From the NCBI RefSeq assembly GCF_000497045.1, contig NW_015961991.1, positions 496,812 to 560,811 of the forward strand: a DNA stretch of 64,000 nucleotides, in the 5' to 3' direction. Position numbers and translations under genes: made by a program. Shown one piece after another: positions 23,343 through 63,239 of the stretch. The DNA comes from Kalmanozyma brasiliensis GHG001. Taxonomy: Eukaryota > Basidiomycota > Ustilaginomycetes > Ustilaginales. The notes beneath the pieces were generated by a model that was not told the origin of the DNA, searched no databases, and saw nothing but the letters and a program-made list of their open reading frames with translations. How positions within the stretch are numbered: the stretch's first letter is position 1; the number at the start of each line of letters is the position of its first letter.

Positions 23343-24107
23343 TCAGTCAAAAGACAGTTCGTCTTCGATCGTAGGTGATTCTTCCTGAAAAGCTTCAGGG
23401 GACTCGTAGTTCTTGATAGTTGCCTCGTCGGTCACGATCCGGAGCTTTCCAACGAAAATTCTGGGCATTTTGACGCCAGTCACCCGGTAGAACTTGGCCC
23501 ACACTGTTTTAACCTCTCCGAGTCGATCCTTGTTCTCCGCAACGTAAGCACCGAGGAGATAGCTGAGTCTACTGTCGCTCGGACCAGGGATAAGATCGTC
23601 GAAACGCCAGACTCTTGGTCGGTAGGGCAACCCTTTTGAGTCAAAGATGCCCTCGAAGCCCGGAAATTGAATCGGATGCTTGAGGAGCTCGAGCATCTCA
23701 GCCAGCGCATCCTTGTTTGGGCAACGAATGTTGACTGTCGGCCCATCAAACATGATCACAGGCGGATCCTGGACCTGAAATACCTCGAATCCGTCCATCA
23801 TCTTGTACAGCGTCGACATCACTTGATCTTGCCAGCCATCGACCTGCTCCTGATCCTGAGCGATGTTCCTAAGCTTGTGGACCATCGGTTCGGATGATAG
23901 CTTGCTGCTTCCTTTCAGGTAAAGGTCTATGAAGTCAAAGTCTGAGCATTTGACCTTGTCCCAGAAGTGAATAACTTCGCATCGAGGCTCGGTGACCTCT
24001 TCAGGAGGCGATCTGTGGTGGCTTGGGTGATTGCCGCCGTTCACGCTCGATTCGTCACCCGAGCTAATTGGCTCTCGAGCGACACTGTCGGGCTCGATGC
24101 CGTTCAT
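23343..24107 (-). CDS. Family P paralogue 1 (unknown function, possible RRM/Gag-like fold)
   Basis: 254 residues from ATG 24105-24107, with no signal peptide. A disordered N-terminus (about 1-45) leads to CEVIHFWDKV. A core follows with QDPPVIMFDGPTVNIRCPN, KGLPYRPRVWRFDDL, YVAENKDRLGEVKTVWAKFY and RIFVGKLRIVTDEATI. The same signature set recurs in the genes at 26511, 27918 and 29351. The order (strand, helix, strand, Gly-Leu-Pro, helix, 'DRLG..kxVW', strand) resembles the RRM-like module of ORF1/Gag proteins of LINE-type retroelements, but no zinc knuckle is present. That fold is inference. A TATA-like CATAAAAAGG lies about 90 bp upstream (24194-24203). Confidence 0.75.
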   Translation of the reverse strand: MNGIEPDSVAREPISSGDESSVNGGNHPSHHRSPPEEVTEPRCEVIHFWDKVKCSDFDFIDLYLKGSSKLSSEPMVHKLRNIAQDQEQVDGWQDQVMSTLYKMMDGFEVFQVQDPPVIMFDGPTVNIRCPNKDALAEMLELLKHPIQFPGFEGIFDSKGLPYRPRVWRFDDLIPGPSDSRLSYLLGAYVAENKDRLGEVKTVWAKFYRVTGVKMPRIFVGKLRIVTDEATIKNYESPEAFQEESPTIEDELSFD

Positions 24108-25483: not shown

Positions 25484-26044
25484 TCATACGATGCTGTGCA
25501 CCTTGTCGACAGGGATCAACGTTTCCAGCCTCTGGAACTCGACGACTGCATCCGTGTGACTGATCGTGTCCATCTTCAGCAGCTCGATTCGACCGCCCTT
25601 GTGCTTCCAGAAAGCCCAGACGTCCTTGCCGTTGGGAGCGCCCTGGCCAATCCTCGTCAGCCCGAAGTCCTCGCTCACGCCGCTGGCGGGCGTGATTCTC
25701 GAGAGGTAGTAGGTGGACGTCATGCCCTTGCGGCCGAACAACGATAGAGGGCTTCGATGCTTGATCTTGCCCACGAGTCGGACGCCCGAACCATAGAGCG
25801 CTTCGTCATGCAGTGTCTGCGCTAGGCGCGAGTCGCGTCGTCGGTAAAAGGCGAGGTCGTTGTGCGGAAAGTCGACGACAGCTTGTTTGTGCTTCCAGAG
25901 AGGTAGACCAGAGCGGATGTACATGTCGGCATCGTCGCCTCGAAGCTTGTCAATGTCGACCTCTTCGTTGGCAAGCGAGAGGAACACCCAAGAGAAAGCG
26001 ACGATGCAGAGCGTAAGAATCGTACCGCGAAAGGCGGGAACCAT
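25484..26044 (-). CDS. Secreted cysteine-free protein, group B-like candidate effector
   Basis: 186 residues from ATG 26042-26044. Residues 1-26 form a typical signal peptide (GTILTLCIVAFSWVFLSLA). The only Cys lies in that peptide, so the mature protein has none. The C-terminal part, GKDVWAFWKHKGGRIELLKMD, matches the hallmark of the secreted proteins at 59501 (AYAFWHVKKGGDRKLLRLD) and 60649 (LYAFWKVDKRGSPKLLRLD). No enzymatic domain was recognised. CATAAAGG on the minus strand (26119-26126) gives a TATA-like element about 80 bp upstream. A secreted effector role is inferred from size, secretion and clustering. Confidence 0.75.
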   Translation of the reverse strand: MVPAFRGTILTLCIVAFSWVFLSLANEEVDIDKLRGDDADMYIRSGLPLWKHKQAVVDFPHNDLAFYRRRDSRLAQTLHDEALYGSGVRLVGKIKHRSPLSLFGRKGMTSTYYLSRITPASGVSEDFGLTRIGQGAPNGKDVWAFWKHKGGRIELLKMDTISHTDAVVEFQRLETLIPVDKVHSIV

Positions 26045-26510: not shown

Positions 26511-27401
26511 TTAGGAGTCGTAGTCGATCATCTCGGGCTTGACGGAAAGGAAAGGAGGAAGCATGTCATTTTTGCCTCTTTTGAGCTTTTCGAGAAGACC
26601 GATGAAGATGCATGCGTCTCCAGTAAAGATCCTCTCGTCAGCCGAGTCGTCCTGCAAGGTGTAGTACTGCGCAATGACGATCATGTTTCTCTTGTCAAAG
26701 TGGTCCGGAACTGCCTTTGCATACTCCTCGACCTCTTGCTCGAACGCTTTCATAGTGTGTTGAGGTAAGCCGTAAAAGCGGTACGCGGCGGTGTCGTTGC
26801 TGTTGAATGCCTTGGAGTCGACCCACATTCTCAGACCGTTGATGTGGGGAGCCGATTCCCAGAGCTTGTCGGCAACGTCATAGTTCTTGCAGCACACTTC
26901 GACGATCGTTCCTTTGAAGGAGATGCATGGAGCAATAGATCGACAACCTTCGAGCTCCTTTTCCCGCATGTAGCGGACAATCTCATTCGTGATGTACTCC
27001 TTTTCGATTGGCTGAAGGTCGGTGGCCGTCTCCTTGCGCTCATAACCAATCATGTCGGGCAGTCCGAAGCCCATTGTATTGGCCGAGCTGTTCCAAGGGG
27101 AAGCTTTGTCAAGCAGATAATCGATGTTGACGTCTGCCTTGCTTGGGTTGTAGACAATGTCCCAGAAGTGGCGCAAAAAACGATGAGCGGGAGAGGTCGC
27201 TGCGTTTGCGGCAGGTGGGTGGTCGATGGGACGGTCAACGTTGGTCCAGCTGCTTTCGTTTGCAGCTTGAGGCCTCTCGTCGTCTGTGTGGAGGGTCTGA
27301 TGATCAGGAGGAAGGGAAGCGTGTTTGGTAGTGCAGCCGAGCTTGATGCAGCGGCTCTCATCCGCAACGCGAGGCTTGCTGTCGTCCTTGTTGACGCTCA
27401 T
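26511..27401 (-). CDS. Family P paralogue 2 (unknown function)
   Basis: 296 residues from ATG 27399-27401. Hydrophilic N-terminus (1-75), then HRFLRHFWDIVYNPSKADV, the counterpart of the HFW box in paralogues 1 and 3. Further on are APCISFKGTIVEVCCKNYD, YRFYGLPQHTMKAFEQEVE and RIFTGDACIFIGLLEKL, aligning with the 'fdG..v.irC', 'GlP' and 'fxGxxxI' boxes. It ends in LPPFLSVKPEMIDYDS. This is the most diverged copy: the DRLG-VWAKF box is replaced by DHFDKRNMIVIAQYY. No signal peptide or TM. A TATA-like GATAAAAG (minus, 27489-27496) lies about 90 bp upstream. Confidence 0.7.
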   Translation of the reverse strand: MSVNKDDSKPRVADESRCIKLGCTTKHASLPPDHQTLHTDDERPQAANESSWTNVDRPIDHPPAANAATSPAHRFLRHFWDIVYNPSKADVNIDYLLDKASPWNSSANTMGFGLPDMIGYERKETATDLQPIEKEYITNEIVRYMREKELEGCRSIAPCISFKGTIVEVCCKNYDVADKLWESAPHINGLRMWVDSKAFNSNDTAAYRFYGLPQHTMKAFEQEVEEYAKAVPDHFDKRNMIVIAQYYTLQDDSADERIFTGDACIFIGLLEKLKRGKNDMLPPFLSVKPEMIDYDS

Positions 27402-27917: not shown

Positions 27918-28661
27918 CTACCACAAGTACGGCTGCTCAATGCACCAGCGCGGCGAGATGCCGTCAAAGAGCGGAAGAGGAGAATCATCGCAGATGGTCG
28001 CCCTTTCGGTCAAAAAGATGAGAGCACCGGAAAGATGCCTCGTACTGCTGCCCTCCTCCTTGCGGAATCTTGCCCAAACGGCTCGAGCCCTGCCGAGTCG
28101 ATCCTCGTTTTCGTCGATGTATTCATTGAGGCGAGGAAGAAGCTGCGCCTCGTCATTGTGTCGCGAAAGACCCAGGAAGGTCCAAAACGCCGGCTGGAAG
28201 GGAAAGCCTCTCAACTGGATTCTGATGGAGAAGGGAGCGGTCGAGTCGAAGTTGGCTAGACACGCAAGACTCGTCTCAAGAGTGGCATTGTCGGTGCAGC
28301 GGATGCTGATGAGCGAGCCTTCGTGGGTAACGAGAGGAAGATCCTCGGGTTGGACGTCCATCGATCCGTAGAGCCAAGACGTGAACCCAGTCTGCTCCGT
28401 TTCGCTGAGTTCGTGAGGAACCGACACGTCTGTGATCGTCGTGCGCGCTTGGATGCTGTGTGTCATGTCCACAGGCGAGACCTCGACGGGGTCAAAGATG
28501 TATTCGTCGCTGAGCGTGAGGTCGTTGGAGATGATCCTCTCCCAAAAATGGATGATCCGAGGCGGCGCAGGAGCCACCTTGCTCGACGATTGGGTGGACA
28601 GCAGCTTGCGCGGTGCTTTGCCCCCGGTGCTCTTTCGTGCAGTTGTCTTGGTTCGCGCCAT
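27918..28661 (-). CDS. Family P paralogue 3 with a histone H3 N-terminal tail mimic
   Basis: 247 residues from ATG 28659-28661 in one uninterrupted frame. After Met, ARTKTTARKSTGGKAPRK matches the first 18 residues of histone H3 with a single change (Q5 to T). Residues 19-31 stay similar (LLSTQSSSKVAPA against QLATKAARKSAPA), keeping K27 but losing K23 and R26. The tail is joined directly to RIIHFWERI, the start of the family P domain. That domain continues with HEGSLISIRCTDN, RGFPFQPAFWTFLGL, YIDENEDRLGRARAVWARFR and HLSGALIFLTERATI. There is no histone fold, signal peptide or TM. Met followed by Ala favours Met removal, which would expose a true H3-like terminus. Chromatin enzymes or readers could therefore act on or bind this protein; that is inference. 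Confidence 0.8.
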   Translation of the reverse strand: MARTKTTARKSTGGKAPRKLLSTQSSSKVAPAPPRIIHFWERIISNDLTLSDEYIFDPVEVSPVDMTHSIQARTTITDVSVPHELSETEQTGFTSWLYGSMDVQPEDLPLVTHEGSLISIRCTDNATLETSLACLANFDSTAPFSIRIQLRGFPFQPAFWTFLGLSRHNDEAQLLPRLNEYIDENEDRLGRARAVWARFRKEEGSSTRHLSGALIFLTERATICDDSPLPLFDGISPRWCIEQPYLW

Positions 28662-29350
28662 TTCGCTTCTTCTTTAAGAGAGAGCAGCAGCCGTTCAGAG
28701 CGCGTCAGCTCCCGCAGCAAACGATTGATTCCACCAGAGCCACTTACAGAGACGAGCGAGGTATGGAAGGTAGGTTGTTGCGGTGCTCAAAGAAGGCGAT
28801 ATCTGCGACTTGGCGATGTATGAATCGGTGATGAACAAGGGCCGAAAGGATCGTCCTCGATGAAGCGCAGAGCGGCAAAGCGCAGTCGGACGGGCGCTCG
28901 GGCCTCCGTCCCACGATGTCGAAAGATCGCCATCAAGCTTCATCCTTGTCAAAGGGGAAATGCGCAGGCATCGACACTATATGGGCGGGCGGAAGAGCGC
29001 AGTGTGTCGACTCGCTGGTCAGAGCTCGGAGCTGCCGACACCAAAGTGCCAAACTTGAGACTGTGGATACGCCGACAGGTGCCGGAAGAGCCGACGAGGA
29101 AGACTGTCTTGGTTTGCCCTCTCAACCCAGTGTGGCGAAATCAGCTGCGCGTGCGCAGCCACTTCATCTCGTTCGGACAATGTTGGTCTTGGCCTTCAGT
29201 CAGAGGCTCAACGTCTTCTGCTCGCATTCTGGATTAGATTCGGACCCACACATTTGCTCAAGTCACAGCGCTGCGGAGCAACACTCTATCGTCACATGCA
29301 ACGCTGAACCAGTCCTTTCGGGAGTGAAATCTTGAGATTGCAATGATCAC
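28662..29350. other. Intergenic spacer upstream of the H3-mimic gene
   Basis: About 690 bp. It should hold the promoter of the H3-mimic gene (minus strand); unlike its neighbours I see no clear TATA-like element 70-100 bp upstream. No gene recognised. Confidence 0.4.
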
Positions 29351-30421
29351 TCAGACGGCCGTGCCAAACTTGTGCAGACCCTGCAAGCTGGGAAGACGAC
29401 GAGGCTTGTTGCCCTGGAAGATTGGCAGGGTCTTGTTGCCAGAGTTACGAAAGGTCTCTGCGTCGGTCACGATGATGACATCGCCTGTGAAATATGACTT
29501 GTCGACACAGGGAATGCTTTCGACGCTGGCGTATGCGATTCGCCACTTGCCGAGTGCATGTACGTTTCGGTCAGCGTAGCTCTGGACGTCCTTGGCGAGC
29601 TGAAGTAGGTCTTGACGAACGGACAGGCCTTTCAGGGACCAGAAGATAGGCGTGAAGGGCATTCCTTTGGTCTTGATCTGAGCATTGAGAGGCCCAAGCT
29701 TGCCATACTTCTCGATCTTCTGGAAGAGGCCTCCGAGGTCACCTTGGTTTGCGCAAGTGACGAGCAGATCGGGACCATCGAAGTTGATCACAGGCGGCGC
29801 CGCGGTGAGTAGATGCTTGGTGAACAGGCTTGTGATGTAGGTTCGGTCGTCTGTGTCGAGGCGATGAGCACGCAGCTTCTCGCCGGAAGCAGCGCTGATG
29901 GCAATCTCGTGCGTCATCTTGCGAAGTGACATCGGCTTGCGATTAAACATGTATGAGCTCCTAGGGTCAAACTGACAGCGAAGCAGCTCGACGGGTTCGA
30001 GCACAACCGTGCATTTGGGACCCTGGAGACTTGACGCCACAGCCGAAGCGTGCAGCAGCATGGCTTGAACACGCTCGTCGTCAGCAGAGGGAGAATTGAC
30101 GACGTCTTGGCCTTCGACGGCCTCTGTCTCGTGACTTTCACTTACGACCTCCTCGATAGCGTCGGGGCCGTCTCGAGGCTCTACGTAGGCCGGCTCCTGA
30201 CCCCTTGCGGCAACTTCCTTGGCATCCTCGGAGGTCGTCGTGAGAGCTGCGACATCATCGGAGCTCTTCTGAAGCACTTCGTCGGTCTCGAGTGCGTACT
30301 GCACGGTAGTGCGCGTCACGTCCTGCTGCGCAGAGGATTCTTCGTCTTTCGCCGCAAGATCCGTGTCGACAAGGGCGGAGAAGTAGTCGACCGCTGGTTT
30401 GATGTAGCCGAGTAGATCCAT
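29351..30421 (-). CDS. Family P paralogue 4 with a long acidic N-terminus (unknown function)
   Basis: 356 residues from ATG 30419-30421. Residues 1-135 are acidic and disordered (ATTTSEDAKEVAARGQE, EEVVSESHETEAVEGQD), an extension absent from the other copies. The family core follows: APPVINFDGPDLLVTCANQG, KTKGMPFTPIFWSLKGLSV, YADRNVHALGKWRIAYASV, YFTGDVIIVTDAETF and LPIFQGNKPRRLPS. The PPVIxFDGP box is nearly identical to paralogue 1. The overall order, ending in a 'tGxxxIvtd...LPiF.G' unit, resembles RRM-type Gag-like domains. No signal peptide or TM. Function unknown. Confidence 0.75.
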   Translation of the reverse strand: MDLLGYIKPAVDYFSALVDTDLAAKDEESSAQQDVTRTTVQYALETDEVLQKSSDDVAALTTTSEDAKEVAARGQEPAYVEPRDGPDAIEEVVSESHETEAVEGQDVVNSPSADDERVQAMLLHASAVASSLQGPKCTVVLEPVELLRCQFDPRSSYMFNRKPMSLRKMTHEIAISAASGEKLRAHRLDTDDRTYITSLFTKHLLTAAPPVINFDGPDLLVTCANQGDLGGLFQKIEKYGKLGPLNAQIKTKGMPFTPIFWSLKGLSVRQDLLQLAKDVQSYADRNVHALGKWRIAYASVESIPCVDKSYFTGDVIIVTDAETFRNSGNKTLPIFQGNKPRRLPSLQGLHKFGTAV

Positions 30422-54744: not shown

Positions 54745-55776
54745 TCAATAAGCATGCCAAAGAAGGCCAGCGAGAGCCGGCTGAATGACCCCGTCTGTGC
54801 TGAGAGTTAAGGAGGCGCTCTTGGGTAAGAACATGCCGCCCAAGAGCCCCAGACTTGCCACTCCACCCTTGTCGAGGTCCGCCAGTGCTTCGTGGAACAC
54901 CCAAAAGTCAGCTCTATGCGCGATTAGCGGGCTGTCTGCGTTTGACGGATGTACCTGCGTCATCATGATGTGCCTCTCTGCTCCGTCACCTGCACTCGGC
55001 AGCGTCAGTTTCCAAATGGTTGGCTGTCGGCTTCGATGCTGCTGCACCGCGTTCACGACTTGAAAACGCAGCCGTTGCCGTATGTTTGCCGACATACGAA
55101 GTTCTTGCGTCGCTTGGTCTGGATGTGCGCGCACCGGTGGCCAAAGGAACTCGCCTTCGTTGATGTGGTCTTCAGGGCGGTATCCCGGGATGAGCCTGGC
55201 TGTCCAGCCAGCGGATCTCAGATGTGGTACAACGCGCTCTTGAATTCGTTGCAGGATGTCAGGGCTGGGACGAAAGAGCGTGTTGTCAATCAGGAGCGTG
55301 TTGCCGTCGAGATAGTGCTCGAAATTGACGGGATGGAAATGTCCGTAATGAATCGTCGACCGGAAGAGCGGCATGTCGAGCGGATAGGGCCTGCTTTGGA
55401 AATGCTGTCTACCAACCAGCAAAGGACCCCAAGTACGACCGTCTGCCGTGGTGAACGGGTGCACCTGGTCGCCGTCGTGGAAAAGCTCGTTTGCAGTGAG
55501 TTGAGCGGCGGGTTGAATGAGTCCGTCTGATGAAGAGCCGGCACCGCTACCATGGGGTCTTGAGCCGCTCAAGAGCGCCTCGGAGAACTCCTCGTCGGTC
55601 GGCAATCGATTCGTAGAGTGTGAACGTCCGAACGGGCTTGGGCCAAATGAAGACAATGTCGGTGAAAAGGGGCTCCACCCCTCGCCCCCGATGGCATTGT
55701 TATCCATCGCCAGCACGAACGTGCTGATTAAAAGGATCGAGAGTATGGAGAGCGACATCGCGCTGTACCGCTGCAT
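54745..55776 (-). CDS. Secreted protein, group A (candidate effector)
   Basis: 343 residues; signal peptide within 1-23 (MSLSILSILLISTFVLA; a second Met at residue 7). The mature chain has no Cys. A disordered Ser/Pro/Gly region (24-100) precedes the group A core: TWGPLLVGRQHFQSRPYPLD, LFRPSPDILQRIQERV, INEGEFLWPPVRA, RHIMMTQVHPSNADSP, ADFWVFHEALADLDKGG and LGLLGGMFLPKSA. These boxes recur in order in the genes at 56239, 57894 and 62289. No known domain was recognised. The function is unknown; secretion, clustering and rapid divergence suggest a virulence effector. A minus-strand TATAAG (55852-55857) lies about 80 bp upstream. Confidence 0.8.
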   Translation of the reverse strand: MQRYSAMSLSILSILLISTFVLAMDNNAIGGEGWSPFSPTLSSFGPSPFGRSHSTNRLPTDEEFSEALLSGSRPHGSGAGSSSDGLIQPAAQLTANELFHDGDQVHPFTTADGRTWGPLLVGRQHFQSRPYPLDMPLFRSTIHYGHFHPVNFEHYLDGNTLLIDNTLFRPSPDILQRIQERVVPHLRSAGWTARLIPGYRPEDHINEGEFLWPPVRAHPDQATQELRMSANIRQRLRFQVVNAVQQHRSRQPTIWKLTLPSAGDGAERHIMMTQVHPSNADSPLIAHRADFWVFHEALADLDKGGVASLGLLGGMFLPKSASLTLSTDGVIQPALAGLLWHAY

Positions 55777-56238: not shown

Positions 56239-57231
56239 TCAGTGAGGCACATACTGGACCATCTGCCCCGACTCCAACAGAGCCTGCTTCGCTCCTCTTG
56301 GCAGCAACATAACGCCAAGCAATGCCATACCTTTACGGGTCGTCATCTGACCCCCAACCCTCCTGTCAAAGAGCCTGGGCTCGTAGAACATCCACAGGGA
56401 GTTTTTCGGCATTCTGACATCCACCGTCGTGAAAGGCTTCGGATCTGACATGGTGATCAAAACAGACCTCGGCTGTGCTTCGGATGTGGATGGGATCGCG
56501 AGTCTGAAGAAACCTGATGCGAATCGGTTTGCCCTGAGCCGATTGTAGATCACTCTTTTGTACTTTGTATCGAGAGTTCTGGCGTTGATAGCCAGTCCGC
56601 GTGCGGTGCGTCGTACGGGAGGCCACAGGAACATGCCGTGATAGAAGTACTTGTCCCGCTGTGGAAGTGGGGTCTGGAGGCGGACGTCTCGGGCGTGAAG
56701 AACGCGCTTGATCGTCGTTGCAATGCTCTCAAGCATCTCTGGCTCTGGACGATAGACGAACGGATCCGCTGAGAGTCTCGATGGCACTCCCGGCCAGATT
56801 CGACGGTTGCTGTTCTCAAGTTCCGCCGGTCGAGTCCCGTCCTGAGTATACAGGTTGGTGAGCTCGTGCATCCACAAGGGATACTCTTTCGGCTGGAACT
56901 TTTCGCGATGTAGGTTGTACGGGCCCCATTGCAGACCAGACTCGTCGTGGAAAGCGGGAATGCTATTGCGCAAGCTTGACGATGCGCCTGCGTCAAATGT
57001 AGCACCAAAACGTGTTCGGGGAGAAGGAAGGGCGCTGGAGCTTGGAATGTCGGCTCCCGGAGTATCAAGCTGGGGCCCAACGGGCTGAGATCGGTACGCG
57101 CTCTGCTCCCTAATTGGATCCATCCGAACGCTGGGAATGGTCGGGCTGTTTGGGTCCATCGCTGCCGACCAGGCGACAAAGCTGACCAGCAGAGCGTACG
57201 AGAAGACCGTGAACGGAATGTAGGTCATCAT
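56239..57231 (-). CDS. Secreted protein, group A (candidate effector)
   Basis: 330 residues; signal peptide 1-24 (FTVFSYALLVSFVAWSAA). No Cys in the mature chain. After a variable Pro/Ser region come the group A boxes: LQWGPYNLHREKFQPKEYPL, FVYRPEPEMLESIATTI, YFYHGMFLWPPVRRTARG, RSVLITMSDPKPFTT, NSLWMFYEPRLFDRRVG and MALLGVMLLPRGAKQALLES. It is closest in its boxes to the gene at 57894. No known domain. The minus-strand TATAAG at 57328-57333 is about 100 bp upstream of the ATG. Unknown function, inferred effector. Confidence 0.8.
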   Translation of the reverse strand: MMTYIPFTVFSYALLVSFVAWSAAMDPNSPTIPSVRMDPIREQSAYRSQPVGPQLDTPGADIPSSSALPSPRTRFGATFDAGASSSLRNSIPAFHDESGLQWGPYNLHREKFQPKEYPLWMHELTNLYTQDGTRPAELENSNRRIWPGVPSRLSADPFVYRPEPEMLESIATTIKRVLHARDVRLQTPLPQRDKYFYHGMFLWPPVRRTARGLAINARTLDTKYKRVIYNRLRANRFASGFFRLAIPSTSEAQPRSVLITMSDPKPFTTVDVRMPKNSLWMFYEPRLFDRRVGGQMTTRKGMALLGVMLLPRGAKQALLESGQMVQYVPH

Positions 57232-57893: not shown

Positions 57894-58883
57894 TCAAAGA
57901 TGTTTGAAGACCGTGATGTCGCCGGATCCCAAGAGAGTCCGCTGTGCGCCCTTTGGCAGAAACATGGCGCCCAAGAACGCTGTCATCTTTCTCGTTCGAT
58001 GTGGGGGCTGTCTGCGCTCGTAAAAGAGCCAGAGCACCGACTCGGGACGGCGCTGCCCATGAATCGGCGTCAAGGCCTCATTCTTGACGACCGTTGTTCC
58101 CAAGATGGACCGCGGTCCCGTCGAAGAGTCAACGGTGAACAGATACAAGTTTGGTGGCGCTTTGATGACCCTCCGCAGTCGATCGCGTGGGATCTTGAGC
58201 AAATGGTTCTCGAGAATTTCTTTCGGCATTTGGTAGCCGGAAAGCGAGTTCTCGAGCGGAGGCCAGAGGTACATGCCTTGGAGGAATCCGGGGTGGTTGC
58301 GATGCACCTCTTTGGCATTCCATCCCGTGCTGTGAAGTCGGCCGAGGATCTTTGAACGAAGACGTTGTAGCACCTCAGGCTCGGGACGATACACAGCTGG
58401 CAGCCAGGGATATCTTGAGGCAAATCGCCTGGACGGAGGGGCGAAGGCGACCGGCATCGATTGGTCGCGCTGGTAGATGTCTGCCAGGGTCGGCTCGTGC
58501 AGTGGGTAGAAGTGCAGCTGAAACTTGGATGCATGAACCGGATAGGGACCCCACTCGACTCCCAATGCATCTCTATGCGTAGGCACATGGCCTAGCTTTG
58601 CACCTGAAGCGACTGCAGGGCGTCGTGATGGGCGTGCGATGCGCAAAGATACTTCACGGTGTTTCCTTTCAGGAACAGCGTCTCGAGCAGGAATCTCGTT
58701 CGAGTTGGCGCTGCTGGTATCGTCCGAGCCTGGCGTCCACGGACTGTCTCCGTGCTCGGAAGAGAACTCGTTTCCGGAAGAAAGTTCGTCATGAGCCTTT
58801 GACGGCGCAGCTGCCAGTAGAGCGGTTACGGCGAACACCGAGAGCAGCCAGAGTGCGAACGACTGTTTCCTCATCTTGTACAT
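57894..58883 (-). CDS. Secreted protein, group A (candidate effector)
   Basis: 329 residues from ATG 58881-58883 (or 326 from the next ATG). Signal peptide ALWLLSVFAVTALLAAAPS. Cys-free mature chain. Group A boxes: VEWGPYPVHASKFQLHFYPL, AVYRPEPEVLQRLRSKI, PGFLQGMYLWPPLENSLSG, RSILGTTVVKNEALTP, ESVLWLFYERRQPPHRT and TAFLGAMFLPKGAQRTLL. The YRPEPE box is shared with the genes at 56239 and 62289. A basic GRLHSTGWNAKEVHRNHPG segment precedes the WPP box. A minus-strand CATAAAA at 58954-58960 lies about 75 bp upstream. Function unknown. Confidence 0.8.
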   Translation of the reverse strand: MYKMRKQSFALWLLSVFAVTALLAAAPSKAHDELSSGNEFSSEHGDSPWTPGSDDTSSANSNEIPARDAVPERKHREVSLRIARPSRRPAVASGAKLGHVPTHRDALGVEWGPYPVHASKFQLHFYPLHEPTLADIYQRDQSMPVAFAPPSRRFASRYPWLPAVYRPEPEVLQRLRSKILGRLHSTGWNAKEVHRNHPGFLQGMYLWPPLENSLSGYQMPKEILENHLLKIPRDRLRRVIKAPPNLYLFTVDSSTGPRSILGTTVVKNEALTPIHGQRRPESVLWLFYERRQPPHRTRKMTAFLGAMFLPKGAQRTLLGSGDITVFKHL

Positions 58884-59500
58884 TGACACGTGAGAGGGAT
58901 GACGTTTCAAACGAGGCAAACTTACACCTGAGACTCGCTCACAACTTGCGATGTTTTATGCCCGCTCGCCATCACCTTCGCACGCTTCTCTCCGACTCGA
59001 TCGAAGCCTTATCGATCATACTCCGGCTATTCCGCATACCATTTCGACGGTCGATCACTCAGCACGATGAAACGCCGCCGAGCGTAATAATGTTGTTCGC
59101 CGTGTTTTTGCCTTGCGACGGGATAGGTCTCGAGACTCGTGCGCCATGGCATCAAAGCCTATATATATATGAAGCGCCATTGATGCAATGCCATCGATTG
59201 CATTGCTATTGTCTGCGAAGCGATGACGGAACGCTACTGGCGCATTGTTGGTGCGCCCTGTGCTTTTGTTTGCAATCGATAAACGCCATTGATGTGAATG
59301 TCTGCCTTGCTCTTGTGTAGAACAGCCACCCACCGTGATGCTTGCGGATCATGAGACCTTTTCACGGCAACACATGTCAACGGGAGAATCGAAGAGACGC
59401 CGACTCGCCTGGCGTCTATATCAACTCGGCTTCAAAGAGCGTTGAGCGTCATTCTCCTCCACGCCGCCAACCAACCGCATCCCGTCATTTTTTGTTCAAG
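58884..59500. other. Divergent promoter region between group A and group B genes
   Basis: It contains the minus-strand CATAAAA (58954-58960) and plus-strand TATAT (59417-59421, 84 bp before ATG 59501). A TATATATATAT run lies near 59160 and an imperfect inverted repeat around GCAATG..CATTGC near 59190-59210. No gene. Confidence 0.45.
58954..58960 (-). promoter_or_regulatory. TATA-like element
   Basis: CATAAAA on the minus strand, about 75 bp before the ATG of the group A gene at 58883. Confidence 0.4.
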
Positions 59501-59992
59501 ATGGTTGCCATCCTCCGAGCCCTGGCCTTCGAACTGCTTACCTTTGGCGTCCACAGCGTCATCGCGCCGCAGCCCACCCTCGACCGCCAACAAAAGCGAC
59601 ACTACGACGCTTCCAAGCGCTTCCTGCGCACTATCTACGGTTACGAAGAGTACGAACCGGTCGAGCGACTTGCGCACTTCCTTCCCGCTCATCCACAGCT
59701 CGAGCAGCACGCCTGGCAGCACGCTCTTGCTCATGGAAACGGACCCGTCCATTGGACCATGAGCTCGAATGAGAAGAATCTTTTCGCAACCACACGCATC
59801 CCGAGCAACAGCCGGCTGGGACGAACTTGGAACTTGGATTGGGTCGACTGGCCCAGAGACGCGTATGCCTTCTGGCACGTCAAGAAGGGCGGCGATAGGA
59901 AGCTTTTGCGCTTGGACGTGTGGCCTTCGCAGCCAATTCCGGCTCCGGTCGAAGCTGTATCCGCCGAATGGCTGATGCAGCGCGCTCACTAG
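59501..59992 (+). CDS. Secreted protein, group B (candidate effector)
   Basis: 163 residues from ATG 59501. A hydrophobic start, MVAILRALAFELLTFGVHSV, is a probable signal peptide, somewhat atypical because of a Glu. No Cys at all. The mature part has HYDASKRFLRTIYGYEEYE, NGPVHWTMSSNEKNLFATTR, SRLGRTWNLDWVDWPRDAYA and FWHVKKGGDRKLLRLDVW. The same order occurs at 60649 (NGPVHVSYG, NLGRTWGLG, LYAFWKVDKRGSPKLLRLD) and in part at 25484. The frame is open upstream of the ATG, but no earlier Met yields a signal peptide. Function unknown. Confidence 0.75.
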   Translation: MVAILRALAFELLTFGVHSVIAPQPTLDRQQKRHYDASKRFLRTIYGYEEYEPVERLAHFLPAHPQLEQHAWQHALAHGNGPVHWTMSSNEKNLFATTRIPSNSRLGRTWNLDWVDWPRDAYAFWHVKKGGDRKLLRLDVWPSQPIPAPVEAVSAEWLMQRAH

Positions 59993-60648: not shown

Positions 60649-61170
60649 ATGGTGTCCATCATTCGAAGCGTCCTCCTCGTGGCCTTTGCCGCCTTCGCGC
60701 TCGCCGTTCCGCAGCCGAGGCTCGACAGCGAAGCGCTGGAGCACTACGAAAACATGCATGGCTTCCTGTCGAACCGCTACCCTGCGGCGGACCAGGGCAC
60801 AGTTGCTCTTTCCACTCGACGGGAGTACTACTCGCACCTTCTCTCCAGCCACACGAACGGCGAAACGGAGGCAAAGGTCTTTTCGCAGACCAGCCCCAAC
60901 GGGCCGGTGCACGTCTCGTACGGAGCTCGATCGCGTACTGCGTACGTGACGACCAAGATTCCGCACGACAGCAATCTCGGGAGGACTTGGGGGCTGGGTG
61001 TGCCGAGCATCGCCGACAACGGAGAGCGACGCTATCGCGACCTGTACGCGTTCTGGAAGGTGGACAAGAGAGGCTCGCCCAAGCTGCTCAGACTCGACAC
61101 TTGGTTGGCGGGAGGGCTCACGCCTCAGGTCATGAGTTGGGACGCCGTCAGGCACTTGCTGCGTGGATGA
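60649..61170 (+). CDS. Secreted protein, group B (candidate effector)
   Basis: 173 residues; clear signal peptide IIRSVLLVAFAAFALA, cleaved before VPQPRLDSEALEHYENMHG. No Cys. It shares with the gene at 59501 a helical N-terminal block (LEHYENMHGFLSNRYP), NGPVHVSYGARSRTAYVTTK, HDSNLGRTWGLGVPS and the hallmark RDLYAFWKVDKRGSPKLLRL. The last 25 residues vary. It is tandem with the other group B gene in the same orientation, which suggests local duplication. Function unknown; effector role inferred. Confidence 0.8.
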   Translation: MVSIIRSVLLVAFAAFALAVPQPRLDSEALEHYENMHGFLSNRYPAADQGTVALSTRREYYSHLLSSHTNGETEAKVFSQTSPNGPVHVSYGARSRTAYVTTKIPHDSNLGRTWGLGVPSIADNGERRYRDLYAFWKVDKRGSPKLLRLDTWLAGGLTPQVMSWDAVRHLLRG

Positions 61171-61326: not shown

Positions 61327-61836
61327 TCATCGTGCCTTGTCTAAGACCTCCTCCAGCGGCTGCCAGCTCCACCTCAGTCCTGTGTACTGCAGCAGATCGA
61401 CGTGCACCAATCTAGCCCTGTTTCCCTCCCACGTCCAGAGAAAGCTCGCAATCTTATGCTCCCCTGCAGGAGGATGATGCCATAGGCCCATCTCTTCGTA
61501 GAGCGCATTGAGGGGATGAGCGGTGCTGAAAAAGTAGGGCTGGTGGTCGTGTGTGAGCCGACCGACGAGGAAAGAGGGAGGGTTGGTGCGGATGAAGCCT
61601 TTGGTTTGAGCAAGCTCCCATGCGGAAGTGACCACGTCGGGGGTGCTGAGGATGTGATAGTCTTGGAGGCGGCGGAATGTAAAGCCTGCCTCGGTATGGA
61701 GGCTGCTCTGAAGCGCGCGGGTCGCTTGAAGCATCTCGGCGTCGCGGGTGGTCGTGCCAACGCACCCGGAAAGGATTGCGATCGCCAAAGCGATAAAGAT
61801 GAGCGGCGAACCCCTGTAGAGTGAGAGGGTCGACAT
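61327..61836 (-). CDS. Secreted protein, group C (candidate effector)
   Basis: 169 residues from ATG 61834-61836. Signal peptide SPLIFIALAIAILSGCVG holds the only Cys. The mature part has FTFRRLQDYHILSTPDVVTS, AWELAQTKG, HDHQPYFFSTAHPLNALYEE and KIASFLWTWEGNRARLVHVD. It is clearly paralogous to the gene starting at 63724 (FTYRHLSSLPLLATPDLAAT, AWEHALTDG, PYFFS). The FLWTWEGN..LVHVDLL segment parallels the group B 'FWxxkxgxxxLLrlD' signature, so B and C may be distant relatives. Another in-frame ATG at 61935 would add 33 residues and spoil the signal peptide. Confidence 0.75.
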   Translation of the reverse strand: MSTLSLYRGSPLIFIALAIAILSGCVGTTTRDAEMLQATRALQSSLHTEAGFTFRRLQDYHILSTPDVVTSAWELAQTKGFIRTNPPSFLVGRLTHDHQPYFFSTAHPLNALYEEMGLWHHPPAGEHKIASFLWTWEGNRARLVHVDLLQYTGLRWSWQPLEEVLDKAR

Positions 61837-62288
61837 GGTTGCGTGTTCGAGCTGTAACGTGTTGTTACGTTGCTTGAACGAAGATGGAGATTGAGCGATA
61901 GGGTCGTTGGAGCGGGTCGGTGCACACGTCGTCATTTAAGGAGGGTATGGATAGAGGTGGGAGCGCAAAAGCTGTGGATGAAGCTAGAGGTCGCCACCTT
62001 GACTTTCATCTCGCTCCGTCCCGCCCACATTAGACTGCAGTGAGAGTGTGGGAGGTGGTGGTGTAGAGCAAGTGAGAGAGCATCTTTCACAACGCTGTGG
62101 CGGCGACGGAGTGGGCATCTTTTACAACGCTTTGTTGGCAACAAAGTTGAGGCCTCAGAGCCCTTCGAAATTAGGTTTCGCGGCTGAGCAGACACGATGG
62201 CAGAACAGACATCGATGCGATCCTCGTTAGTAGAGCTCGACGTCGACTTGTACCAACCAGCTCGTTCCTTCTTCTTGCCAACACAGCC
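61837..62288. other. Divergent promoter region between group C and group A genes
   Basis: About 450 bp. A minus-strand TTAAA sits about 100 bp before the group C ATG. No clear TATA box was found for the gene at 62289. No gene. Confidence 0.4.
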
Positions 62289-63239
62289 ATGCTCTCCCTG
62301 TTCTACGTCAGCGCCTGTGCTGGCCTTGTGCTGGCCTCGACATTGACCCGCATCAAAGCGATAAACGAACTTGCACCGCACCATTTCGTTCCAGTCTGGG
62401 AAGCCTTTCCTGGCCGACCCAATCCCATTCACCAACGCTTCGAGCCGGCCAACTCTCCCGCCTCGGGCCCTAGTACGCCCATACAGCCAGCGAGTCCTAT
62501 TCGTGCAGAAGACGCTCCTCTGCAGCTCCACCCGTACCTCTTCCAGCCGGTCGCCTACCCTACTCGCATGCCCGAGCTCGCGCATCTCTACACGGACTCG
62601 ACGCTCCCCGCGGACTGGACGGAGGAGAATCAGGCCTACACGAGTCGCTACCGGTTCAGCCGCATTGAAAGTCGGCCTTTGCTGTACCGTCCTGAACCTG
62701 CGCTGCTCGAGGGCATCGGCGGCACCATTGTTGGCGATCTCGGCAGCAACGGCGTGACTCTCAAGACGGCCCGCACAGGAGGCGCCAGGTACACCGAAGG
62801 CGTCTTCCTCTGGCCGCCGCTGCATTACGCGGAGAACGGCCAACTGCACATGCCCGCGAATGTCCTCGAACCTCGTCTGTCCGACATCCCCAACTCGCGC
62901 ATCCGGACCAAACCCGAAGCGCCGGAGCTGTACAGCCTCGATGTGCCAGTGGAGGGCCAGGTTCGACGCGTTCTCGCTACGCGTGCTCAAATCCAGTCGT
63001 TCACCACCCTCTCCCGTGCCCACCGCCACAGTAGCGCCCTGTGGCTGTTCTACGAATCGAGGATTCTGCATCCCGAAGAGATGGAGCCGCGAAAGACGCT
63101 CGCGTTTCTCGGCGCCATGCTCCTCCCCACCCAGGCAAGGGACGTGCTGTTGGCGACGCAAAGGTTTCAGAGCTACGTCCCTGGGGAGGACGATGCGGCG
63201 GTGGAAGGGTTGCTCCGTTTGACCCTGGGTGCGCGGTAG
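62289..63239 (+). CDS. Secreted protein, group A (candidate effector), opposite orientation
   Basis: 316 residues; signal peptide MLSLFYVSACAGLVLAS holds the only Cys. Group A boxes: FQPVAYPTRMPELAHLYTD, LLYRPEPALLEGIGGTI, RYTEGVFLWPPLHYAENG, SSALWLFYESRILHPEE and LAFLGAMLLPTQARDVLLAT. The usual GPY/HxxKF part is reduced to APLQLHPYLFQPVAYPTRM. It is the only group A gene on the plus strand, separated from the other three by group B and C genes, so an inversion or an independent insertion has occurred. Function unknown. Confidence 0.8.
   Translation: MLSLFYVSACAGLVLASTLTRIKAINELAPHHFVPVWEAFPGRPNPIHQRFEPANSPASGPSTPIQPASPIRAEDAPLQLHPYLFQPVAYPTRMPELAHLYTDSTLPADWTEENQAYTSRYRFSRIESRPLLYRPEPALLEGIGGTIVGDLGSNGVTLKTARTGGARYTEGVFLWPPLHYAENGQLHMPANVLEPRLSDIPNSRIRTKPEAPELYSLDVPVEGQVRRVLATRAQIQSFTTLSRAHRHSSALWLFYESRILHPEEMEPRKTLAFLGAMLLPTQARDVLLATQRFQSYVPGEDDAAVEGLLRLTLGAR

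Follow-up and report, generated by a model that had tools for sequence, protein, structure and literature searches.

We analyzed a 64,000-nucleotide stretch of the genome of Kalmanozyma brasiliensis GHG001 (G000:C25:496812-560811, hereafter the window; the genome comprises 17.27 Mb in 26 contigs) and found a predicted gene whose non-histone product begins with a long sequence nearly identical to the tail of histone H3. The gene is a single-exon open reading frame (ORF) located at 27918..28661 on the (-) strand, with a 100% match to contig C25. Its translation has 247 residues and opens with MARTKTTARKSTGGKAPRKLLSTQSSSKVAPAPPRIIHFWE. The tail is joined, in one uninterrupted 247-codon frame, to a domain of a family that we denote family P. 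We propose, with a probability of about one half, that the H3-tail protein may be a soluble intracellular H3-tail decoy or adaptor, one that the cell's own H3 enzymes would mark and that would recruit H3-tail readers to the ligand of its domain. This reading rests on the sequence, the unbroken frame, the lack of a histone-fold match and of a hydrophobic start, and the fact that the genome has genes of the Set1, Pre-SET/SET and HP1-like types.

Residues of the tail are given in H3 numbering throughout, and Met is not counted. Directly after Met, 17 of 18 residues were found to equal those of H3 (28605..28661, -). Q5T is the sole change, and H3 6-18, a run of 13 residues, is unbroken. A first-pass annotation of this DNA had counted 17 identities in the first 18 residues and 23 in the first 31, and both counts are right for the H3 gene on contig C26, while the H3 gene on C22 gives 22. 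The same totals of 23 and 22 were obtained over residues 1-32, all shared residues lying within the first 31 by inspection. The residues listed earlier as kept (R2, K4, R8, K9, S10, T11, K14, R17, K18 and K27) are indeed retained, and the two listed as lost, K23 and R26, are Q and S. The substitutions in the tail are thus Q5 to T, Q19 to L, K23 to Q, R26 to S and S28 to V. Past K18 the likeness to H3 fades, with L20, T22 and K27 kept and then APA at positions 29-31. The APA may itself be family P sequence, as it is partly common to two other copies, which read AAPAY (L012) and RAPTF (L011), each directly before the same FW motif. We therefore delimited the tail to Met plus H3 1-27 (28578..28661, -), over which 20 of 27 residues are identical to H3 by count on the alignment.

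Chance likeness to H3 could be ruled out: the binomial probability of at least 17 matches in 18 at one site, given the composition of family P, is 2.5e-20. With the H3-tail protein as query, phmmer gave a best H3 match of E 1.5e-6 against the PDB and a best histone match of E 6.5e-6 against 5.77e9 proteins. The tail is predicted to be disordered (predicted local distance difference test score, pLDDT, below 50 for residues 1-28 of the protein). The histone fold PF00125 gave no Pfam match at E<=10, in line with the first-pass annotation, which had seen an in-frame fusion to family P without any histone fold, and the sole Pfam match was to PF15715 and below its cut-off (E 0.084, 14.1 bits against 23.4). 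Judged from its sequence, the protein carries the H3 tail without the histone fold. H3-like sequence beyond chance on a non-histone protein makes it, at the sequence level, a candidate histone mimic.

With the protein as the sole query, 55 of 417 candidates scored at E<=10, namely itself and 54 others. Fifty-two of the 54 carry PF00125, and two (P0028 and P0031) have no Pfam domain. In P0031, ordinary H3 sequence continues over the 40 residues shown. P0028 is a 178-residue NCBI entry in which the H3 tail runs to K18 and is followed by glutamine-rich non-histone sequence; it is probably a gene-model chimera. We also observed an H3-fold protein, P0039, on 31 contigs, which has T5 and diverges after K18 in a segment reading SLSGQKGRKQASQ. 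T5, S21 and Q23 are common to P0039 and the H3-tail protein.

Since 17 of 18 residues match the H3 tail, the histone-marking machinery of the cell would likely treat the protein as H3. Removal of Met would expose A1-R2-T3-K4, which is intact, although Q5T adjoins it. The likeliest events would be methylation of K9 with reading by HP1, and acetylation of K14 and K18, because H3 6-18 is unbroken. As K27 has lost its ARKS context, signalling through it is unlikely. Once readers are bound, the domain could carry them to a target of its own or could sequester them, and local recruitment seems likelier than competition with abundant H3. WIZ and LIG1 provide a precedent, as their ARKS-type sites are reported to act as histone mimics that EHMT enzymes methylate (PMC10611923). 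The K. brasiliensis genome encodes a Set1-type protein (SET, N-SET and SET_assoc domains), a Pre-SET/SET protein, a Set2-type protein (SET, AWS and SRI), an AWS/SET protein and two HP1-like proteins with chromo and chromoshadow domains, as found by classifying 4 of 13 SET matches and 3 loci of 8 chromo matches. Action of Set1/COMPASS or H3K9 methyltransferases on the tail, as suggested in the first-pass annotation, is therefore possible insofar as Set1-type, Pre-SET/SET and HP1-like genes are present.

The main and a serious rival is that the tail is only a nuclear-import signal, as the H3 tail is known to be for cargo of Kap123 and Kap-beta2, and that it brings the family P domain into the nucleus without H3 signalling. 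We give this a clear minority chance. The available text of one study describes H3 1-28 as a signal for import that is recognized through K14 and K23 (PMC5677370). In the tail, K14 is kept with small neighbours and K27 is kept at a spacing allowed by the published consensus, in which the second lysine follows after six or more residues (PMC5677370); the net charge of the first 35 residues, +9, is also in keeping with import. However, K23 of this two-lysine signal is Q in the tail, and K23Q lowered the affinity for Kap123 in the same study (PMC5677370). The 17 H3 residues in 18 are also more than an import signal needs, and the contacts named in the part of the report available do not include K4, K9 or the free N-terminus (PMC5677370).

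The family P domain spans residues 36-240 (27942..28556, -) and is alignable across the family. Structure prediction suggests two ferredoxin/RRM-like units together with a disordered tail. No Pfam RRM profile matched the H3-tail protein or six family sequences at E<=10, a PDB profile search gave 0 matches, and a viral fold library gave none at E<=0.001. On this predicted module a bolder proposal can be built, which we regard as doubtful. The whole H3 tail would have been transplanted onto the two-ferredoxin/RRM-like module and selected as an off-nucleosome platform, K9 methylation would load HP1, and the module would deliver the silencing signal to its targets, either RNA or protein; in this way heterochromatin marks would be written and read without a nucleosome.

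Four family P copies are located in the window. Contig C3 has two more, of which one is broken, C11 has a single copy, and the copy on C8 is also broken. L011, mentioned above, is a broken copy. The three paralogues in the window, all on the (-) strand and without the H3 tail, are located at 23343..24107, 26511..27401 and 29351..30421. The first and third were identified by genome match, alignment and N-terminus count; the second was identified by alignment, with 18% identity, and was absent from the genome matches. The earlier statement that these three paralogues lack the tail held up, with 0-2 identities to H3 in 18 residues each, and three further copies elsewhere in the genome gave the same result, so that all six paralogues whose N-terminus can be read lack the tail (the C8 copy, whose N-terminus is unreadable, was left out). 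Acquisition of the tail within the family, as proposed earlier, is the simplest reading of this absence, and loss in the other members is also allowed. We noted that the broken C8 copy (G000:C8:496035-497731) lies about 1 kb from a DNA-methylase fragment and near the contig end at 498365.

A six-sequence family P profile gave two matches among 7995 scored candidates, P0056 (91% to L010) and P0057, which is the window's own. No named relative of family P was found in the protein database by a search based on shared 5-residue words, which can miss distant orthologues. In the same database, a neighbouring IQ protein is 76-81% identical to those of eight named species among the best 120 of 627 listed matches. 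These are Pseudozyma hubeiensis, Sporisorium graminicola, S. scitamineum, S. reilianum, Ustilago trichophora, U. tritici, Ustilago sp. UG-2017b and Moesziomyces antarcticus, all of which we take to be smuts, so that the organism studied here is most likely related to the smuts as well.

The first-pass annotation had proposed DNA alignment to the genome's own H3 genes as a check for gene capture, and no sign of such capture was found. Two H3 genes were identified (C22 and C26), one with a 92-nt intron after GGK. Over 36 codons, 70 of 108 and 72 of 108 bases of the H3-tail gene equal those of the two genes. At shared residues in the first 19 codons, the same codon is used 6 times (C26) and 7 times (C22), where codon usage expects 6.65 and 6.99; over 33 codons the counts are 8 and 9 against an expected 9.17 and 9.32. 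The two H3 genes have 26 of 31 codons in common between themselves. The S10 codon is AGC in the H3-tail gene and TCC in both H3 genes. Using blastn, the gene with 1000 upstream bases gave only chance-level matches to both H3 genes and a CENP-A-like gene (best E 0.047, in the upstream part; two touching the tail end, at E 7 and E 2). Because codon identity is only at the level expected from codon usage, we reject both a misassembly with the genome's two H3 genes and recent copying from them as the source of the tail. An assembly error involving these genes, which had been named as a possible objection, can thus be set aside. CENP-A was likewise rejected as donor, as L003, which we read as the CENP-A gene, starts with MAARPRPSLADTSYATSY and has no H3-like tail. 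A promoter common to the paralogues was also rejected (best blastn E 1.5).

Ancient capture of H3, a foreign donor and convergence remain as origins of the tail. In the first 18 codons after Met, the H3-tail gene differs from the C22 gene at 10 third positions and by one residue. When neutral drift from the C22 gene was simulated to 10 third-position differences, none of 3000 runs kept at least 17 of 18 residues, whereas 23 of 3000 did so at five differences and 244 of 3000 at three. If the tail descended from the C22 gene, drift therefore fails to give the pattern and selection kept the peptide. This argument would fall if the donor was foreign. A corresponding rival is that a foreign or variant H3 gene, such as one carrying T5 like certain grass entries, supplied the tail fairly recently, and that the tail has no H3-like function and persists by drift. 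Codon identity at chance to the genome's own H3 genes would fit such a donor. So would the presence of T5 in 6 of the 54 non-self entries (P0015, P0030, P0039, P0047, P0053 and P0054), three of which come from Digitaria, Urochloa and Eleusine, presumably all grasses. However, the grass tails are no closer to the H3-tail protein beyond T5, and tail and domain have equal G+C content at third codon positions (GC3; 0.71 and 0.69, respectively). We consider this rival rather improbable, and T5 in grass H3 entries may serve as a lead to a donor, not as a test.

The tail would exist only if the frame is expressed as read. An in-frame TAA is located upstream of the ATG, from which it is separated by four codons. 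A candidate 76-nt intron in the 5' untranslated region (28672..28747, -; GTAAGT ... CTGAC ... AAAG, with CTGAC as the branch) ends 10 nt before the ATG and would add no residues, and use of GTGGGA, a weaker donor, would extend the frame by 11-13 codons. That the gene is dead or uses another start site, so that the tail is never on a protein, appears very improbable. Broken family P copies exist (L011 and the C8 copy) and three ATGs occur within the 500 nt upstream of the start, but the 247-codon frame is intact, the domain can be aligned family-wide, and the start context, CGAAATGG, is one that we judge to be good.

A host-directed effector, which would imitate plant H3 after delivery to plant nuclei, was also considered. 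Plant pathogens are found among the named relatives of the organism, and secreted-looking ORFs were noticed in the window. In the H3-tail protein, however, no hydrophobic start was found within the first 40 residues (best 15-residue mean 0.05), using simple hydropathy and not a signal-peptide predictor. By this measure secretion was ruled out, and an effector is for this reason hardly to be expected. Elsewhere in the window, four ORFs of 316-343 residues (54745-55776, 56239-57231 and 57894-58883 on the (-) strand, and 62289-63239 on the (+) strand) appear by eye to form one family with hydrophobic N-termini. Four smaller ORFs (25484-26044, 59351-59992, 60649-61170 and 61327-61935), one of them between family P genes, are hydrophobic near the start and similarly worded by eye, and possibly represent a second secreted family.

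Other chromatin-related genes were also observed in the genome. An Argonaute (Piwi/PAZ) is encoded, as are a DNA methylase on C13, a SNF2-linked DNA methylase on C5 (L036:3044-9997), a methylase fragment on C8 and an SRA protein with no other Pfam domain in its ORF (L038:2026-3378). We take the SNF2-linked methylase to have the DNMT5 arrangement. Together with the SRA and HP1-like proteins of the same genome, it looks like a DNMT5-type maintenance methylation system. RNA interference (RNAi) and heterochromatin genes were lost in U. maydis and kept in U. hordei, as far as the available text of a comparison goes (PMC7763443). By its gene content, the K. brasiliensis genome resembles U. hordei rather than U. 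maydis in these genes. A 659-residue frame on C9 (L030:1554-3530) combines a 5-hmdU DNA kinase helical domain (PF18723, E 3.6e-94) with a chromodomain.

To our knowledge, known histone mimics are short motifs. If the decoy or adaptor reading is true, the H3-tail protein would be an unusually long natural histone mimic. A free N-terminus, K4, K9, S10, K14 and K18 would then occur together on a non-histone protein, a natural experiment with the H3 code acting off the nucleosome, and would test whether recruitment of writers and readers needs more than the tail. In H3 work on this organism that relies on antibodies, the protein would also be a hidden target of cross-reaction.

Several known systems resemble the H3-tail protein in part. 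Six H3 variants with T5, listed above by accession, have the same MARTKTTARKSTGGK start; they carry PF00125, whereas the H3-tail protein does not. PAF15/PCLAF (PF15715) is, by its Pfam name, a small non-histone protein with a histone-like N-terminus, but our protein scores 14.1 bits against the cut-off of 23.4 and differs in the rest of its sequence. H3-like stretches are short in influenza NS1, and also in fission yeast Swi6 and Clr4. NS1 is alike in carrying an H3-tail-like sequence on an unrelated protein, and the available text places this viral mimic at the carboxy terminus (PMC12937675), whereas the tail described here is long, N-terminal and encoded in a fungal genome. The Swi6/HP1 H3 mimic (PMC7192584) and the pseudosubstrate stretch in the autoregulatory loop of Clr4 (PMC10135481) are alike in lying in fungal proteins. 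As described in the available parts of these reports, both are intramolecular regulators inside known heterochromatin proteins, unlike the H3-tail protein. The first-pass annotation had called a mimic of this length and completeness undescribed in fungi. The statement calls for caution, since the short Swi6 mimic is described; among the literature matches listed on histone mimics, fungi and smut included, no title described a non-histone protein with a long H3 tail at its N-terminus. PAF15 is a substrate of UHRF1, and the LIG1 mimic is bound by the UHRF1 TTD, in the available text of one report (PMC6316679). The G9a/GLP-type H3K9 mimics (G9a, WIZ and LIG1) are alike in that H3K9 enzymes methylate an ARK(S/T)-type site outside the histones, again in the available text (PMC10611923). 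Their motifs are short and internal, whereas the H3-tail protein presents 18 N-terminal residues that include K4 to K18. We thus rate histone mimicry itself as already established, and the length, position and completeness of the tail as what is new here.
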